Positions 40,281 through 47,721 of a stretch of DNA of 64,000 bases are shown here, one piece after another. The stretch comes from Xenorhabdus griffiniae (lineage in GTDB: Bacteria > Pseudomonadota > Gammaproteobacteria > Enterobacterales > Enterobacteriaceae): assembly GCF_037265215.1 (NCBI RefSeq), contig NZ_CP147737.1:2698001-2762000 (forward strand). Direction: 5' to 3'. Below the pieces are notes generated by a model. That model saw nothing but the letters and a program-made list of their open reading frames with translations. It was not told the origin of the DNA and did not search any database. The position numbers were made by a program, and so were the translations under genes. Positions within the stretch are counted from its first letter, which is position 1; the number at the start of each line of letters is the position of its first letter.

Positions 40281-41207
40281 TTAGTTTTTATTTTTATCAA
40301 CGTTCATGAGCCGAACATTACTCAATATTCCCTGCCCCAAGAGCACTCCTACAATAGTGACAACAACGCCAATTATCTGTGGCAAGCTGGGGATATTTCC
40401 CATTATTAGCTGTATCATAAGTGCAAACATGGGAACCAAGTTAAAAAATATTGCCGTTTTTCCTGCTCCACGAATAGCAACTCCCATATTCCAAAAAAGA
40501 TAGGCAATAGTAGAACCACCAATACCTATATAGAAACAGGCCAAATGGCTTTCAAATGTTCCTGAAGATAATGCAGCTATTGGCGATTCCACAAAAATCG
40601 CAATAAACACTAATATGATCGCACCAAAAAGTATTGTCCAGCTCGTAGTCGCCAAAGGCGTCGCATCTTTGACAAATACCCGTATTCCCACTGTGTAAAT
40701 TGACCAACCGAGACTTCCCATAAAAATGATTATATCGCCGGCTACTATCTGAGAGACACCGCCCAACATCAATTCACCGTTGGTAATAACTAAAGTAACT
40801 CCCAACAAACTGATTGCCATACCAATAACTCTCATCAATCCAGGTAACCGACGATTTATAATCGCTTCCAGAATGTTGGCAGAGATAGGCGTCGTTGCCA
40901 CAATCAAAGCTGCCGTGACGGGGTTGGAACTTTGGAGACCAACAAAAAATGCCCCATTAAATCCCGCCACACCAATCGCCCCAAGAACAATAAATGCCCA
41001 CCAGTTTTGCTTCAAAACTTTACCGTGAATCCCCTCTTTCCATGCAAAAAAAATAAAAATACCGATAACTGCATAGAAAAAACGCTCAACAGAAGCTGTC
41101 CACGGTGGCAAACTCGTCAGTGCAAATTTTGTTACCTGAAAATTGGATCCCCAAAAGAATGTTGCAATTAGCGTTAGCACTATCGCTAACTGTGGAGTTG
41201 TTTTCAT
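40281..41207 (-). CDS. EamA/DMT-family exporter
   Basis: A 308-residue inner-membrane transporter with about ten hydrophobic segments and two EamA repeats (LTLIATFFWGSNFQVTKFAL at the start, IIIFMGSLGWSIYTVGIRVF in the second half). The family exports metabolites or amino acids; the substrate cannot be predicted. Divergent from a LysR-type gene 124 bases away, likely its regulator. ATG at 41207 sits eight bases from TAGGT; 41213 is possible. Confidence 0.85.
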   Translation of the reverse strand: MKTTPQLAIVLTLIATFFWGSNFQVTKFALTSLPPWTASVERFFYAVIGIFIFFAWKEGIHGKVLKQNWWAFIVLGAIGVAGFNGAFFVGLQSSNPVTAALIVATTPISANILEAIINRRLPGLMRVIGMAISLLGVTLVITNGELMLGGVSQIVAGDIIIFMGSLGWSIYTVGIRVFVKDATPLATTSWTILFGAIILVFIAIFVESPIAALSSGTFESHLACFYIGIGGSTIAYLFWNMGVAIRGAGKTAIFFNLVPMFALMIQLIMGNIPSLPQIIGVVVTIVGVLLGQGILSNVRLMNVDKNKN

Positions 41208-41331
41208 ATTCATTACCTATCTTGATTAATCTTAAATAAAATAATTCTTGGTAAAATCATTGTGGCATCTTTTAAAATTGAAATATTTAGGCAAAATTGG
41301 TAATCAAATTTTCAGAAACGGAAAATAAATC

Positions 41332-42243
41332 GTGCAATCACTTATTTGGGACGATATTCGAATATTCTTGGCAATAGCGCGAGCAGGAACTATCAGTAAA
41401 GCGGCTGAGCTTCTTGGTATTGGTGTGGCAACGGTATCGAGAAAAATAGAACGCCTGGAAAATACTTTCGGAATGCCATTATTTTTGCGGCATCAAACAG
41501 GTTATCAACTAACAGAAGATGGCGCAGAACTGTTGGAAAAAGCCAAAGCCATGGAAATGACAGCAAATTCATTTCTGTTTGAAGCCGATCTACGAGCAAC
41601 TATTGCCGGCAATATACGCCTTGCAACACTTGAAACACTCTCCAATTATTTAATTATGCCAAACTTGCCGACCTTACAAAAAAATCATCCAAATCTGACA
41701 TTAGAAATCACAACGGATAATTACACAGTAAACCTTCACCGTCGTGATGCTGATTTAGCACTTCGTATCATCAGACCGGAGCAAGGCCATGTCAATGTCC
41801 GACAACTAGGAATGCTGGGGTTTGGCCTTTATGGAAGCGAAGCCTATTTAGCCACCTGCACTTCCGATATATTTAGAGGTGAATACAACGACGCTCATTT
41901 TATTGGCTGGACAAGTGAATACTCACAACTTCCTTCCGTTAACTGGCTTAAGCAAACCTTACAAGGGCGTTCTCTTTCAGTCGCAACAACTTCGATTTGT
42001 TCTCAAATTGCAGCAGCAACTGCGGGCCTGGGATTAGCCGTGCTGCCTCATATTGCAGCCAATAACGCTGGGCTTACGTGTATTTCGCCTGATTTAGGCA
42101 TAGATAAACCCATCTGGCTTGTTATTCAATCTGATTTGGCCCATTCTCCCAGGATCCGGAAAGTGGCAGATTTTTTAGCAGATATAGTTTTTCAAAATCA
42201 GGATAAACTGTCAGGACGGTCACACCAATCGGGCATACTATAA
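41332..42243 (+). CDS. LysR-type transcriptional regulator
   Basis: A 303-residue LysR regulator. N-terminal winged helix: WDDIRIFLAIARAGTISKAA, ELLGIGVATVSRKIERLE, LFLRHQTGYQLTEDG. The rest is the substrate-binding fold. GTG 41332 is the start. It probably controls the divergent EamA exporter from the shared 124-base spacer; inducer unknown. Confidence 0.9.
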   Translation: MQSLIWDDIRIFLAIARAGTISKAAELLGIGVATVSRKIERLENTFGMPLFLRHQTGYQLTEDGAELLEKAKAMEMTANSFLFEADLRATIAGNIRLATLETLSNYLIMPNLPTLQKNHPNLTLEITTDNYTVNLHRRDADLALRIIRPEQGHVNVRQLGMLGFGLYGSEAYLATCTSDIFRGEYNDAHFIGWTSEYSQLPSVNWLKQTLQGRSLSVATTSICSQIAAATAGLGLAVLPHIAANNAGLTCISPDLGIDKPIWLVIQSDLAHSPRIRKVADFLADIVFQNQDKLSGRSHQSGIL

Positions 42244-42706
42244 CATTCCGCATAACCAACAGCGGCACACTTGATTGGATAAGCGATAAGATAGCCATCT
42301 AATTTTAATCTGGACTTCTGTCTAATCAATTATTATCGGCCAGGCTTCCGTTTAAGCTTATATTAAGATGTTAAAGATGAATAAATCTTTCCCATCCGAT
42401 GATATTCGGATAAAAAATAATTTTTATCCGATCTTACATACATATTATTTACAATTCATTTATTCACGTTATGATGTTGTTGTGATATTGTGTATTGCAG
42501 CATCATTATCTCATTGAACCAATTTATTAAAGAATAAACTTAAAAATTTGTTAAAACATAATTCAGTAAGACGCTATTTCCACTATTGGAGCAACTAAGT
42601 GATTTCTCTAAAATTGGTATATATTCTTTATTATCATTAATATATCGCCATACTCATATATAGAAAAACGGGGAAATACTTTATCTTTTTTAATCATGAG
42701 GTTACT
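42244..42706. other. AT-rich upstream region of the IS-disrupted gene
   Basis: No gene. Around 42446-42510 the sequence TATTTACAATTCATTTATTCACG is closely matched upstream of the small peptide gene (44751-44810), suggesting a shared promoter module. ATGAGG at 42696-42701 is the ribosome site for the ATG at 42707. Confidence 0.5.
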
Positions 42707-42712
42707 ATGTTA

Positions 42713-43592
42713 GGGCGTGTTGACGTTTCGTGGAGGGAAGTTTGAACAGCATGATGATCTGGTATCATTGTCTTCGCGAAAAAACCATTACCCCAGCTCA
42801 TCATGCCAAGAACAATGTTATCAAAATCTTTATGGAATACGCTAGCTGTATTAATGCAACAACATGGATGTATTTACCACAAAGACGCGCATTACCTGAC
42901 TTTCGAAGGGATCCTTTATCGAATGAGAACGGGATGTCCGTGGCGGGATTTACCCGATGAATTTGGCAAATGGAATACGCTTTTTAAGCGCTTTAACGCC
43001 TGGTCAAAGAAAGGTGTTTTTGAATTATTATTCAAATTGTTATCTGAAAATACAGACACCGAATGGTTATTCATTGATGGGAGTATTATCCGCGCTCATC
43101 AACATAGCTCAGGGGCAGCTTCAACAGAAGATGAAGCCATCGGTAAAAGTCGAGGTGGACGTTCGACTAAAATTCATTTGGCCGTAGACAGTTATGGTTT
43201 GCCTGTCCATTTTGAGCTGTCAGGGGGTCAAACGCACGACATTGTACATGCAGAAAGTTTGGTCACCCATTCACCCGCATCCGATTTTGTGATCGCGGAT
43301 AAAGGTTACGATAGCGGTACTTTCAGAGATTTCGTTGAAAAACAAGGTTCAAAAACGGTCATTCCCTATCGAAAAAATAGCCGAAAACCCGATAAAAGTA
43401 TTGATGAAGTTTTATACTGTTATCGGCATTTGGTCGAAAATGCGTTTGCCAGAATAAAACATTTTCGAGCTATTGCGACAAGATACGATAAATTGGCGCG
43501 AAATTACGCCAGTATGTTGGCACTGGCGTTTGTCATTATATGGTTACCGATGTGGGTTGAGTAAATGGTGAACTCAAAACGTCAACAGCCCC
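42713..43592 (+). mobile_element. IS5-family element (IS427-like), 880 bp
   Basis: Ends are inverted repeats: GGGCGTGTTGACGTTT on the left and AAACGTCAACAGCCCC on the right, imperfect by two bases. It is flanked by TA on both sides (42711-42712 and 43593-43594), the TA duplication of IS427-type elements. One full transposase gene fills it. It landed exactly between codons 1-2 of the M29-like gene. Confidence 0.9.
42803..43564 (+). CDS. IS5-family transposase
   Basis: A 253-residue DDE transposase. D92 (LFIDGS), D166 (IADKGYDS) and E212 (YRHLVENAF) form the triad, with the family Y...R...K signature near E (FARIKHFRAIATRYDK). It starts MPRTMLSKSLWNTLAVLMQQ, a complete N-terminus for this group, so no frameshift is needed. 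A second frame at 42730 overlaps it and is a shadow. Confidence 0.92.
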   Translation: MPRTMLSKSLWNTLAVLMQQHGCIYHKDAHYLTFEGILYRMRTGCPWRDLPDEFGKWNTLFKRFNAWSKKGVFELLFKLLSENTDTEWLFIDGSIIRAHQHSSGAASTEDEAIGKSRGGRSTKIHLAVDSYGLPVHFELSGGQTHDIVHAESLVTHSPASDFVIADKGYDSGTFRDFVEKQGSKTVIPYRKNSRKPDKSIDEVLYCYRHLVENAFARIKHFRAIATRYDKLARNYASMLALAFVIIWLPMWVE

Positions 43593-44581
43593 TAATCATT
43601 GATGAAAAAAACAAAAGCATAAAAAACATGTTTTCTAACTTGTTTCATCACCCTTCAGTCAATAAAAAGAGAGAAAATAGCGAGGTTATTAACTTATTAA
43701 TTGGATGGGATGAGAGACATAAAAATATTATTGAAAATATTTCAAGTGCCTCGACAGAATTCCCTTTGCTGGAAACTTGCTTACTGCCTCTCGATTCTAC
43801 TCCTTCATCAATATTAATTGAACAAATTGAAAAATGTGATGTTTTCATGTTTCTTTATCTTTCATCAACATTAAAACCTTTTACATCATCAGGGCCTCAG
43901 TTTTTGTCCCCCATAAGGAAAGTTATGCAAGAAAATTGGCGAAAATCAATTATCTTCAAGGATTATGGTGAGCATTTTTATGAAGCTTTCTCTGAGCAAA
44001 TAGAAATAATAAGTAATAGAAACCAATCAATCATAAATCTTGCCATGGTAAGTAAACAAATTATCTTTGAACAAGAACATGATAGCATTCTGACCGCAAC
44101 GATTAACGAAAAACAATCATGGACATCAATAGACGGTAAAAATAGTTATGATATCACTCCTGGTGAAATAGCAACAAAACTACACAATCTAGAAGGATGT
44201 ATTACTTTTAGTGGTACTTTTCTCAGTACTATCCCTTTTGCTATTAAATATGGAGTTGTAAAAGATTTTTTCAAAATAAAAGTAAAAAATAGCCAGATCA
44301 TTGACTTTACATGCCGAGATCCTATTTTCTCCCAAGATTTTGACAAATATCTATCCGCAAATCCAAGCAATAGTGTGATTGAAGAATTTGGTATTGGGAC
44401 AAACTATGGCGTTAAAAGGCTGTACGGTTTAAATGCTGGTTTTGAAGAACGGCACCCTGGCCTGCATCTTGGATTAGGTGGCGGTGCGATGGGTAGCCAC
44501 CATTTGGATCTTATTTTTGAAGGCGGAAAACTATTCTTTGATAAGAAAAACTTTTTTCATAATAAATTATTTAATATTTAG
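43565..44581 (+). CDS. M29-metallopeptidase-like protein, start replaced by IS
   Basis: A 338-residue frame whose C-terminus resembles the M29/aminopeptidase-T fold: EEFGIGTN (Glu273/274), AGFEERHPGLHLGLGGG (Glu294/295, His301) and GSHHLDL (His312/313, Asp315) as possible metal ligands. The present start (ATG 43565) lies inside the IS; without the IS the gene read ATG-TTA-ATC at 42707. It overlaps the transposase stop (TAAATG), so may be translated by coupling. Peptidase activity, or a hydrolase/dioxygenase role as in NicX-type relatives, is inference. Confidence 0.6.
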   Translation: MVNSKRQQPLIIDEKNKSIKNMFSNLFHHPSVNKKRENSEVINLLIGWDERHKNIIENISSASTEFPLLETCLLPLDSTPSSILIEQIEKCDVFMFLYLSSTLKPFTSSGPQFLSPIRKVMQENWRKSIIFKDYGEHFYEAFSEQIEIISNRNQSIINLAMVSKQIIFEQEHDSILTATINEKQSWTSIDGKNSYDITPGEIATKLHNLEGCITFSGTFLSTIPFAIKYGVVKDFFKIKVKNSQIIDFTCRDPIFSQDFDKYLSANPSNSVIEEFGIGTNYGVKRLYGLNAGFEERHPGLHLGLGGGAMGSHHLDLIFEGGKLFFDKKNFFHNKLFNI

Positions 44582-44865
44582 ATTAACGATACATTCATAA
44601 AATTCAATTTGATATATGGTTGCTAATCAAGAAAATAATACAACCACTTCAAAGTTTAAAAAATCAACTAAACAGCAAATTTTTATGAAAAACTAATATA
44701 ATCGTACCATTATACCAGACAAAATAATTTTTGTTTTTTTACAATATATTTATTTACAATCCATTTTCATTCACTATCATACAATATTGTTATCTGCAAC
44801 ATATCATAGATAAATTATTTATCATACAGTTTAATCATCATAAACTTAGTAAAGTTGAGGTTAAT

Positions 44866-44985
44866 ATGGAAAATACCACTATCGAATTAAACGAATGGTT
44901 TGAAGAAGAAACTTTTGAAGAAGCTGTTGAAATTATGCAAGAAAAAGCCGTTGTTCCCGTTGGAACAGCCATGTGGCCCATTTAA
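44866..44985 (+). CDS. 39-residue acidic peptide, candidate RiPP precursor
   Basis: A short gene with TTGAGGTTAAT before the ATG. It has a strongly acidic leader (NEWFEEETFEEAVEIM), then a hydrophobic tail VVPVGTAMWPI. The acidic leader plus conserved-looking core is typical of ribosomally made, modified peptides. No modifying enzyme is adjacent except the M29-like gene 284 bases upstream; the upstream DNA is shared with that gene. Function is inferred, not shown. Confidence 0.5.
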   Translation: MENTTIELNEWFEEETFEEAVEIMQEKAVVPVGTAMWPI

Positions 44986-45025
44986 AAGAATATATATTCT
45001 TCGCATTAGTATATTAATGATTATA

Positions 45026-45118
45026 CCAATCTAACTTCAAGATGCGTGTGATTTCTCCCCGCTTCGCGGGGAGAAATCACGTTTCATAAAGTGTTGTAAA
45101 TTGCAACTTGAAGTTTAA
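45026..45118. repeat. Palindromic repeat with perfect 15-bp stem
   Basis: GTGATTTCTCCCCGC-TTC-GCGGGGAGAAATCAC (45048-45080) is a perfect stem with a three-base loop. It is flanked by TAACTTCAAG on the left and CAACTTGAAG on the right. Matching halves occur around the palindrome at 39560-39730. Intergenic repeat family; probable terminator for the peptide gene as well. Confidence 0.7.
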
Positions 45119-45228
45119 TGTATATATAAAACGGAGAAATACTTCTTCATTTTCATATTTCAAGTTTTTTGCAAAATTCCTTTTGCCAAAGGTTAATTTA
45201 TTATTTACTCCTATACCCTCTAAAAGCA

Positions 45229-45732
45229 TCATGCAAATCGACTATTGATTAAAGCCATCCCCATCACATCACAATATTGACCATTTCTAAACGACTGCAT
45301 ACGCCGTATACCTTCGGCTTCAAAACCAAATTTTTTATACAGAGCAATCGCTTTTTCATTATCAGTAAAAACTTCAAGTTCAATTATGATGCAGCCTAAC
45401 CAGTTGAATGCATAGTCAATAATAAAAGCCATCAACTTTGAACCAACACCTTTACCAAAATAAGCCGCATCAACACCGATACCAATCGCCACGGCGTGTC
45501 TACGTCTCGGATTAGCATAGGTAAATAACGCTATTGTACCCACAACTTTGCCATCTATTTCAGCCACAAAATCAATATGCCCTTGTGTTTTATTTAATTT
45601 TAAACGTTCACACCACATTTCATGCGAAGGACATGGGCGTTGTAATGTATTGAAGTAAACATCAGGATGGCCAAAAATTCGTTGATAATGCTCAGCATCC
45701 TCAGGCTCAGTTGCCCTTATTATAATTTCCAT
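45229..45732 (-). CDS. GNAT N-acetyltransferase
   Basis: A 167-residue GNAT enzyme, reminiscent of L-amino-acid acetyltransferases of the YhhY type. The acetyl-CoA loop is GIGVDAAYFGKGVGSKLM (V/I-x-x-x-x-Q/G-x-G-x-G/A) and the C-terminal block is NEKAIALYKKFGFEAEGI. Start at ATG 45732, with AGAGGTG upstream; the frame opens at 45738. No operon partner; substrate not determined. Confidence 0.78.
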   Translation of the reverse strand: MEIIIRATEPEDAEHYQRIFGHPDVYFNTLQRPCPSHEMWCERLKLNKTQGHIDFVAEIDGKVVGTIALFTYANPRRRHAVAIGIGVDAAYFGKGVGSKLMAFIIDYAFNWLGCIIIELEVFTDNEKAIALYKKFGFEAEGIRRMQSFRNGQYCDVMGMALINSRFA

Positions 45733-45872
45733 ACACACCTCTTTTTAACTTGTTCTCTTTATAACTACCTGATAAAAAAACAAATGTAAATAGCATATTA
45801 AATGTTTACTTAAAGTAATAATTCAACCTTCTACTGAAGTTATTTCATACCCATTTATTTTTTGGAGTTCAT

Positions 45873-46255
45873 ATGATTCAGGAAAATGTAGCTATTTTTG
45901 AATTACTCAAAAATTTTGAAGTAAGCCTTCACGGTAAAAAGAGAAATAATGCCGATTGGTTAAATATAGTATTACACGATAATTTTCTAGAAATTAGTAA
46001 GTCAGGTTATGTTTATACTAAAAAAGATGTGTTTGATGCATTAACTACAGAAAAAAAACTAATTTTCAGCTTTTCTCAAAAAACTTTTCTATAAACCTTC
46101 TTGATAAAAATATTGTATTATTAACTTATCAATCTTACGAAATGGATCTAACTGGCAACCTTTTCAATCAAGCACTTCGTTCATCAATTTGGCAATTATC
46201 TTCAACTGGTAAATGGCAGCTTAGATTCCATCAAGGTACGATCATACCTGTTTAA
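45873..46255 (+). pseudogene. DUF4440 gene broken by a frameshift at a poly-A tract
   Basis: N-terminal part in one frame (VSLHGKKRNNADWLNIVLHD...NFLEISKSGYVYTKKDVF), C-terminal part in another (LLDKNIVLLTYQSYEMDL...ALRSSIWQLSSTGKWQLRFHQ), together one SnoaL-like DUF4440 protein. The frames rejoin if one A is added to the eight-A run at 46051-46058. As it stands the first frame stops at 46094. This may be a true mutation, a slipped-strand phase-variable tract, or a sequencing error. Confidence 0.75.
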
Positions 46256-46284
46256 GAGAAAAAATGGCCCAATATTTGGGCCAT
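46256..46284 (-). terminator. cycA terminator
   Basis: On the minus strand ATGGCCCAAATATTGGGCCAT is followed by TTTTTTC, 30 bases after the cycA stop. Confidence 0.85.
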
Positions 46285-46314
46285 CCAGATTAATCAGCAG
46301 GATTCTTCTTTTGC

Positions 46315-47721
46315 TCAATGAGCAAGGCGAATTTTACGCTTTTTCACAATCTGAAACCCGATCATTAAAATAATAAACCAGATTGGTGTGGCTAATAACG
46401 CCAGGCGAGTATCTGGCTGCAAAGAAAGCAATACCAAAACAAAAGCAAAGAAAACCAAGCATACCCAAGACATGACAATACCAAATGGCATTTTATACAC
46501 CGAAGCCTGGTGTAATTCTGGGCGACGCTTTCTATAAACCAGATAGGAACACAAGATCATGCTCCAAATAAACATAAACAGGATCGCAGAAACGGTTGTC
46601 ACTAGAGTAAAAACCCGCATCACATCGGGGATAAAATAGATCAAAATGACTCCAAATGAGAGACATAGACAAGTAAAGACCAACCCTGATGCCGGAACCG
46701 AACGGCGGGAAAGACGGCTAAACTGCTTTGGTGCATCTCCTTCTTTCGCCAGACCGAACAACATCCTGCTAGTGGAGAAAACCCCACTATTTGCCGAAGA
46801 TGCCGCAGAAGTCAAAACCACAAAGTTAACGATGCTGGCAGCAGCGGGTAATCCGATCAAAACGAACAATTCCACAAAAGGACTTTTATCCGCGCTAACA
46901 GCTCGCCACGGTGTGACTGACATAATGACAATCAAAGCCAATACATAAAACGTGATAATACGGATAGGAATAGCATTGATCGCTTTTGGTAAAGATTTCA
47001 TTGGGTTTTTAGTTTCTGCTGCGGCAGTTCCCACCAACTCAATACCAACAAAAGCAAATATCGCGATCTGGAACCCGGCAAAAAATCCGCTTAACCCCAT
47101 AGGGAACATACCACCATCATTCCAGACATTAGAAAGTGCTGCAACATGTCCTGCTGGTGATTTAAAATTGATGCCAACCAAAATGCCTCCTGTCACAATC
47201 AAGGCAATAATGGCAATAATTTTGATCATGGCAAACCAAAACTCCAGTTCACCAAACAGCTTAACTGTCGCGAGATTCAGAGTTAGCAATACCAGAACAC
47301 ACAAAAGCGAAGTTCCCCATTCTGGAAAACCAGGTACCCAATATCCAACATAAGCAGTGATGGCAACAATATCGGCTATACCAGTAATTACCCAGCAGAA
47401 CCAATAAGTCCAGCCGACAAAAAAACCGGCCCACGGCCCTAGTAAATCTGCGGAGAAATCGCTAAACGACTTATAGTGCAAATTAGAAAGTAATAACTCT
47501 CCCATTGCCCGCATAACAAAAAACAGCATAAAGCCTATGATCATATAAACAAAAATAATCGATGGCCCAGCAAGAGAGATAGTTTTGCCTGATCCCATAA
47601 ACAGACCAGTACCGATGGCACCACCAATTGCAATTAACTGTATATGTCGGTTGGTAAGACTTCGCTGCAAGTGCGAACTTCCAGTTTCAGTAGTGTGAGT
47701 GGGTTGTATTTTTTCTTCCAT
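46315..47721 (-). CDS. cycA: D-serine/D-alanine/glycine permease
   Basis: A 468-residue amino-acid/proton symporter of the APC family with about twelve TM segments. NRHIQLIAIGGAIGTGLFMG near the N-terminus is the APC signature, and TYWFCWVITGIADIVAITAY with the FFAGFQIAIFAFVGIELVGT segment matches CycA. ATG 47721 is preferred over the track start (26 residues upstream) because MEEKIQPTH resembles a normal N-terminus. Substrate assignment rests on family resemblance. Confidence 0.88.
   Translation of the reverse strand: MEEKIQPTHTTETGSSHLQRSLTNRHIQLIAIGGAIGTGLFMGSGKTISLAGPSIIFVYMIIGFMLFFVMRAMGELLLSNLHYKSFSDFSADLLGPWAGFFVGWTYWFCWVITGIADIVAITAYVGYWVPGFPEWGTSLLCVLVLLTLNLATVKLFGELEFWFAMIKIIAIIALIVTGGILVGINFKSPAGHVAALSNVWNDGGMFPMGLSGFFAGFQIAIFAFVGIELVGTAAAETKNPMKSLPKAINAIPIRIITFYVLALIVIMSVTPWRAVSADKSPFVELFVLIGLPAAASIVNFVVLTSAASSANSGVFSTSRMLFGLAKEGDAPKQFSRLSRRSVPASGLVFTCLCLSFGVILIYFIPDVMRVFTLVTTVSAILFMFIWSMILCSYLVYRKRRPELHQASVYKMPFGIVMSWVCLVFFAFVLVLLSLQPDTRLALLATPIWFIILMIGFQIVKKRKIRLAH

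Follow-up and report, generated by a model that had tools for sequence, protein, structure and literature searches.

The stretch analyzed here, 64,000 nucleotides of Xenorhabdus griffiniae contig NZ_CP147737.1 (referred to as the window), contains a short open reading frame at positions 44866-44985 that follows, on the same strand, a gene for a protein with the fold of M29 aminopeptidases. This protein resembles CgnB, a protein of crocagin biosynthesis, and the two genes are considered below as a pair. The pair is made up of the following features, the second of the genes being disrupted by an insertion sequence (IS).

44866..44985, forward strand: precursor-like peptide gene, 39 amino acids, with an acidic N-terminal part and the conserved tail AVVPVGTAMWPI; recognized by open reading frame, homologs, and the ratio of nonsynonymous to synonymous substitution (dN/dS)
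42707..42712, forward strand: first two codons of the CgnB-like gene, with its original ATG start; recognized by comparison with the uninterrupted site in locus L002 and by GAGG upstream
42713..43592, forward strand: IS5-family element with duplicated TA, interrupting the CgnB-like gene; transposase at 42803-43564
43593..44581, forward strand: remainder of the CgnB-like gene (M29 fold), whose open frame at present starts at 43565, within the IS

The frame of 39 codons at 44866-44985 represents a genuine gene. It begins with ATG preceded by a GAGG ribosome site, and its product, MENTTIELNEWFEEETFEEAVEIMQEKAVVPVGTAMWPI, contains 10 acidic residues versus one basic and ends in the hydrophobic tail VVPVGTAMWPI; ribosome site, acidic leader, and tail are all present exactly as a preliminary description of this DNA had claimed. 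An 84-amino acid version starting from TTG at 44731 is disfavored, as both the ribosome site and the conservation start at the ATG at 44866. Across the 35 codons up to and including the C-terminal Trp, dN/dS had a median of 0.042 for Xenorhabdus (from 27 usable pairs of 28), 0.041 for Pseudomonas (459 of 465 pairs), and 0.133 for Burkholderia (three pairs). Conservation and dN/dS together rule out a chance frame; a frame lacking conservation would have spoken against the preliminary description. In the host genome, the peptide and the CgnB-like gene have a single match each. Public annotation lists the pair as "leucyl aminopeptidase" and "hypothetical protein," and some of the peptides as "mercuric reductase," names under which the pair is easily overlooked.

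That the two families co-occur, as the preliminary description had presumed, was evident across genera. A homologous peptide adjoins the CgnB-like gene in 52 of the 57 genomes or records having that gene, distributed over Xenorhabdus (8/9), Pseudomonadaceae (36/38), Photorhabdus (2/3), other Enterobacterales (2/2), Burkholderia (3/3, counted as replicons), Piscirickettsia (1/1), and a class member with a fragment only (0/1). Of the five unpaired cases, three are fragments of the gene and two lie at contig ends. In two Pseudomonadaceae (G907 and G941; loci L084 and L085), only a stop-broken enzyme fragment is left and a motif scan detected no peptide, which is expected if the pair functions jointly; in G056, the enzyme is reduced to a fragment of 148 codons, again with no peptide. 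One Xenorhabdus genome (G009) has the enzyme without the peptide, the contig stopping at the 3′ end of the gene, and in one Photorhabdus genome (G1199) the 166 nt upstream differ from those of other Photorhabdus except for the last stretch before the gene, and beyond these 166 nt the contig ends. One of the 36 paired Pseudomonadaceae (G925) has an enzyme gene frameshifted near the C-terminus. Of 30 Xenorhabdus genomes, nine contain the enzyme and eight the peptide, all eight within those nine; the peptide was found in none of the 21 genomes lacking the enzyme gene. A profile search with the peptide recovered 23 proteins, all with an expectation value (E) of 1.2e-9 or better, adding Chromobacterium, Vibrio aquimaris, and metagenomes to the distribution. 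Several of these proteins come from contigs equal in length to one carrying a listed homolog of the enzyme, which hints indirectly at linkage. In phages and viral contigs, no relative was found. Peptide and enzyme distances were correlated (Mantel r 0.91, 0 of 9,999 permutations, 25 of 51 pairs used), a value that still includes relatedness.

Numbered from the last Trp, the residues Trp(−26), Val(−16), Met(−13), and Thr(−3) are invariant in 52 distinct peptides, and eight further columns of 31 deviate in only one to three of them. This is a recount with five later finds added, because the first count, over 47 peptides, drew partly on sequences collected with a motif that fixed several columns. 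The conserved tail residues that the preliminary description had proposed to look for do exist: VVP[FV]GT[AS][ML]W is nearly invariant across homologs, and Thr and the last Trp are kept throughout, including in the two other Enterobacterales, whose tail reads AVIPFAT[AS]LWA with the Gly changed. After the last Trp follow one or two residues (P, PL, PV, PI, PF, PM, AL, AV, SV, L, or A).

The partner encoded next to the peptide appears to be of the CgnB type, not of the CgnE type, and not a plain M29 peptidase. About 54 of the 120 homologs listed (151 matched), as counted by eye, carry PF26231.1; one PF26231 record is titled "Crocagin biosynthetic protein CgnE/B domain," and those relatives that have a name are mostly called leucyl aminopeptidase. 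The window protein, identical (100%) to that of X. griffiniae VH1, gave no match to Pfam Peptidase_M29 at E up to 1. Its AlphaFold model (predicted local distance difference test score 90.1) matched, among solved structures, only M29 aminopeptidases, the dioxygenase NicX, CgnB, and CgnE with E values no higher than 1.4e-8, lumazine synthase following at 9.2e-4; the predicted structure thus has the CgnB/CgnE fold. VIA-align Z scores were 21.6 for NicX, 19.5 for AmpT, 18.4 for PepS, 15.5 for CgnB, and 15.4 for CgnE, with the next unrelated structure at 7.3 (root-mean-square deviation [rmsd] 4.3-5.7; NicX 5.4 over 290). In the profile alignment, CgnB Glu252, Glu274, His280, His291, and Asp293 correspond to E266, E287, H293, H305, and D307, so that five of the six zinc ligands of CgnB (numbering of the main text of PMC10070186) fall on residues invariant in 23 sequences; the sixth, Glu161, probably corresponds to E193. 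From these conserved ligands, the dinuclear metal site is predicted to be intact, and it is the conservation of the CgnB metal ligands that places the protein with CgnB and not with CgnE.

Two gene orders were observed. In five of the eight Xenorhabdus genomes, the window included, the peptide follows the enzyme at a distance of 189-288 nt; it lies upstream of the enzyme in the three other Xenorhabdus and in every examined locus of other genera. Where it lies upstream (42 loci), the spacer measures 16-203 nt, mostly 58-95, starts being chosen crudely. Spacer folding in 17 of the 42 loci gave z values between −0.2 and −5.0 versus simple shuffles, not all of them exceptional singly. In a 10-sequence Pseudomonas alignment, a hairpin between the tandem genes is conserved, with 90.8% of cells paired as compared with 81.9% in shuffles and 30-54% when slid. 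Six of its 12 pairs are changed on both sides (shuffles mean 3.2, 9 of 500 reaching 6), as are 14 cells, a number reached by 0 of 500 shuffles, which keep relatedness in; two pairs are disrupted, each in three sequences. The hairpin suggests that the precursor is expressed in excess of the enzyme. No third gene was common to more than two of seven groups in 27 loci (10 of the 36 Pseudomonas taken in), except antisense frames of the enzyme. 

Taken together, linkage, conservation, fold, conserved metal ligands, and the operon-like layout in most loci make it probable that a ribosomal precursor and a dedicated CgnB-type partner form a minimal, two-gene unit of the crocagin family of ribosomally synthesized and post-translationally modified peptides (RiPPs), whichever enzyme does the chemistry. 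The protein would recognize the peptide by its acidic front part, its two-metal site holding the tail AVVPxGTx[ML]W(Px), and the peptide would become modified. In crocagin biosynthesis, CgnB and CgnE bind the precursor CgnA, and CgnC hydroxylates the core by adding a β-hydroxyl to Tyr; for CgnB, a metal-assisted elimination of this hydroxyl followed by attack of the neighboring Trp has been proposed (main text of PMC10070186). The RiPP-type system envisaged in the preliminary description is therefore supported by the kinship of the partner with these precursor binders, and although no named system had been recognized there, crocagin is a related one. Of its suggestion that the enzyme trims or modifies the peptide, the second half fares better: trimming is less likely than binding or a modification that depends on metal, because the partner is CgnB-like and no aminopeptidase activity was seen for CgnB/CgnE (main text of PMC10070186).

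Several observations weigh against this interpretation. By fold, the aminopeptidases and NicX outscore CgnB, and sequence similarity to CgnB (6zsv) is not significant (profile E 1.2), the link to CgnB being drawn from the PF26231 labels of the homologs and from the fold. The leader of the peptide is acidic, versus basic in CgnA. The genomic peptides were found by tail-motif scans, which favor conserved tails, and the last Trp, as the alignment anchor, could not vary in the column counts. Modification of the peptide is a prediction, and the enzyme gene of this particular strain is interrupted. Moreover, genes that would hydroxylate or methylate the peptide, remove its leader, or export it are not shared with the pair across genera; thus, either a lone modifying enzyme or partners acting in trans must be assumed.

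How a lone enzyme could work can be outlined, although this is a guess and, taken on its own, an unlikely one. Given that no hydroxylase is shared and that an invariant Thr precedes the Trp by three residues, the enzyme might use the hydroxyl supplied by the ribosome: Thr34 already bears a β-hydroxyl, which would make a hydroxylase unnecessary. The enzyme alone would then dehydrate Thr34 (loss of 18 Da), Trp37 would add to the dehydrated residue and close a ring, and a hydrolase encoded elsewhere would free the product. That the pairs constitute a one-enzyme RiPP class, joining Thr to Trp and yielding the same small cyclic product across Xenorhabdus, Photorhabdus, Pseudomonas, Burkholderia, Chromobacterium, and Vibrio, is unlikely in this full form; if true, the shared product would perhaps be a signal or cofactor. 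The near-invariant tail in any case suggests that the product has one conserved target (signal or cofactor) and is not a diversifying toxin. The pair would be the smallest version of such a system, one peptide and one metalloprotein with a product probably the same in many bacteria, and it bears on the role of CgnB-type proteins that lack a hydroxylase partner.

The chief alternative to catalysis by the lone enzyme, itself still a RiPP system, is presentation: the CgnB-like protein would only bind the precursor and present it to a modifying enzyme encoded elsewhere. This is possible, if on the doubtful side. CgnE binds CgnA and is thought to deliver it to CgnC while catalyzing nothing itself (main text of PMC10070186), and a TPR-like gene after the enzyme in loci L100 and L101 suggests that extra genes may join in some lineages. 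The metal site, however, is predicted to be intact, like that of CgnB and unlike that of CgnE, and the neighborhoods offer no such third gene common to more than two groups, a comparison that did not extend to a genome-wide profile search for the partner.

Outside the RiPP interpretation favored here, a true metallopeptidase might trim the peptide and free its short tail as a signal. Despite the M29 fold, we regard this as unlikely: in addition to the lack of aminopeptidase activity of CgnB/CgnE (main text of PMC10070186) and of a Peptidase_M29 match in the window protein, no exporter gene was common across genera in the 27 loci. About as improbable, or slightly more so, is a peptide that stays unmodified throughout and acts on the enzyme at the protein level, as inhibitor, chaperone, or regulatory ligand. 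One-to-one pairing, correlated distances, and conservation along much of the peptide would suit any tight pair, but the CgnB precedent is a precursor, the invariant Thr and Trp near the C-terminus look more like a core than like an inhibitor, and the peptide excess suggested by the spacer hairpin points the same way. An M29-fold iron oxygenase resembling the 2,5-dihydroxypyridine dioxygenase NicX, which would oxidize the Trp of the peptide, is very unlikely, even though NicX has the highest Z score; NicX acts on a small molecule with a single iron and is not known to have a peptide partner. The ligand set of CgnB is kept in the window protein, which is taken to favor two metals, and a common fold does not prove a function. 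The least credible explanation, an upstream frame that controls the enzyme by ribosome stalling (attenuator), would fit the 42 loci with the peptide upstream, its usual end of Trp-Pro plus zero or one residue, and the hairpin that follows, but it is largely refuted by the existence of both gene orders, as in five of the eight Xenorhabdus the peptide lies downstream, behind its own promoter-like element, and in the window the gene after it is convergent, which leaves no possibility of action in cis on the enzyme.

Compared with crocagin (Chondromyces crocatus cgnA with cgnB/cgnE; main text of PMC10070186), the present pair shares an M29-fold CgnB-type protein with a predicted intact metal site beside a short precursor, a candidate precursor being close by in the 52 of 57 cases given above, and a Trp at or next to the precursor C-terminus. 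It differs in having one CgnB-like copy (each genome with a match had a single one within the E limits applied), whereas crocagin has two, the metal site of one being broken. No linked hydroxylase, hydrolase, methyltransferase, or carbamoyltransferase is shared across genera; for the CgnC hydroxylase, this negative derives from the comparison of neighbors and not from a search aimed at it. The precursors differ as well: the leader is acidic instead of basic, the whole precursor measures about 37-45 amino acids instead of 21, and the tail is GT[AS][ML]W with one or two further residues (GT[AS][ML]WPx) instead of the IYW of CgnA with its Tyr-Trp core. The M29 aminopeptidases AmpT, PepS, and AmpS have the same overall fold as the window enzyme at 9-15% identity; the window gene, unlike theirs, is tied to a peptide gene, and its product does not match Peptidase_M29. 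The CgnB/E family, its M29 ancestry, and lone CgnB/CgnE homologs with candidate precursors predicted by RiPPER were already reported in 2023 (main text of PMC10070186), so the pair does not represent a new class. The present family may be among those homologs, which are single-copy and combine an intact metal site with a candidate precursor, although neither Xenorhabdus nor Photorhabdus, Pseudomonas, or Burkholderia is named in that main text. antiSMASH 7 has a crocagin rule (PMC10320115). In the literature searched, which did not include the supplement of PMC10070186, no paper was found that prints the tail motif or describes the pair; what appears new is therefore the family of precursors and its occurrence across Pseudomonas, Burkholderia, Photorhabdus, and Xenorhabdus, together with the near-invariant tail, the existence of both gene orders, and the hairpin in the spacer.

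Upstream of the two genes of the window, the match of about 60 bases on which the preliminary description had based co-regulation (44751-44810 and 42446-42510) proved real. The two 300-nt upstream stretches align with a score of 48, as compared with a maximum of 38 in 300 dinucleotide shuffles, and the similarity falls on two sigma-70-like sites, the only ones in the region that match at 10 of 12 positions:

44753..44780, forward strand: putative promoter of the peptide gene, sigma-70-like (TTTACA, 16 nt, TATCAT); recognized by consensus match and conservation
42448..42475, forward strand: putative promoter of the CgnB-like gene, sigma-70-like (TTTACA, 16 nt, TATGAT); recognized as the matching element

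Sigma-70-like sites as a class are not enriched (15 found, 13.6 expected from shuffles), so the case for promoters rests on sharing and conservation. In all five Xenorhabdus with the peptide downstream of the enzyme, the element is found upstream of both genes with 0-5 mismatches (equaled by 0-4 of 200 shuffles in each of the 10 upstream regions), and the hexamer pair TTTACA-16-TATNAT occurs in eight of these 10 regions. It was not above chance in the three Xenorhabdus with the peptide upstream (7-8 mismatches; 55-159 of 200 shuffles) and was not found upstream of the peptide in two Photorhabdus (9 mismatches). Local alignment of the upstream stretches was weaker in other species than in the window, the score being reached by 205 of 300 shuffles in G013 (whose 300-nt stretch truncates the element), 138 in G019, three each in G017 and G023, and none in G022, where another stretch aligned. 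Folding of 42476-42607 revealed nothing unusual, and an Rfam scan of 41000-47000 gave no match.

The IS5-family element sits directly after the second codon of the CgnB-like gene, whereas the site is uninterrupted in X. griffiniae VH1. The frame that the preliminary description took for the M29-like gene, 43565-44581, begins inside the IS, directly past the stop codon of the transposase.

Some neighboring genes were tried as further partners. An amino acid permease is CycA-like in the window and AroP-like in Pseudomonas and, the subfamilies being different, was dismissed as a chance neighbor. A GNAT gene lies by seven of the eight Xenorhabdus loci and by one other Enterobacterales locus; two GNAT genes compared were 40% identical and below the cut-off of a broad N-acetyltransferase model, and their presence was likewise taken as chance. 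MFS- or MATE-like genes, recognized by eye near some loci, were not common across genera. The TPR-like gene directly after the enzyme in two Enterobacterales (L100 7999-9435 and L101 5439-6878) encodes a protein of 478/479 amino acids whose N-terminal part matches a designed TPR protein (E 6e-9), with Pfam TPR below the cut-off or absent. Its C-terminal part may resemble a glycosyltransferase, which we presume from a motif. Glycosyltransferases are present in all crocagin-like clusters except crocagin's own (main text of PMC10070186). In one Xenorhabdus, a gene beside the enzyme (L038 10898-12403) joins a BpsA_C (branched-chain polyamine synthase) domain to an S-adenosylmethionine decarboxylase domain.

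One further feature follows the peptide gene:

45036..45116, no strand assigned: strong palindrome after the peptide gene, possibly its 3′ end, with an uncertain link to the system

The 128-nt stretch past the peptide folds at −40.6 kcal/mol (z −6.3), and GC-rich palindromes with the stem CCCCGC...GCGGGG also occur elsewhere in the window (39642, 39711, and 63968). Farther downstream, a DUF4440-like gene (45873-46255) seems frameshifted, with a frame of 73 amino acids as compared with 127 in G013 (L035 11540-11923).
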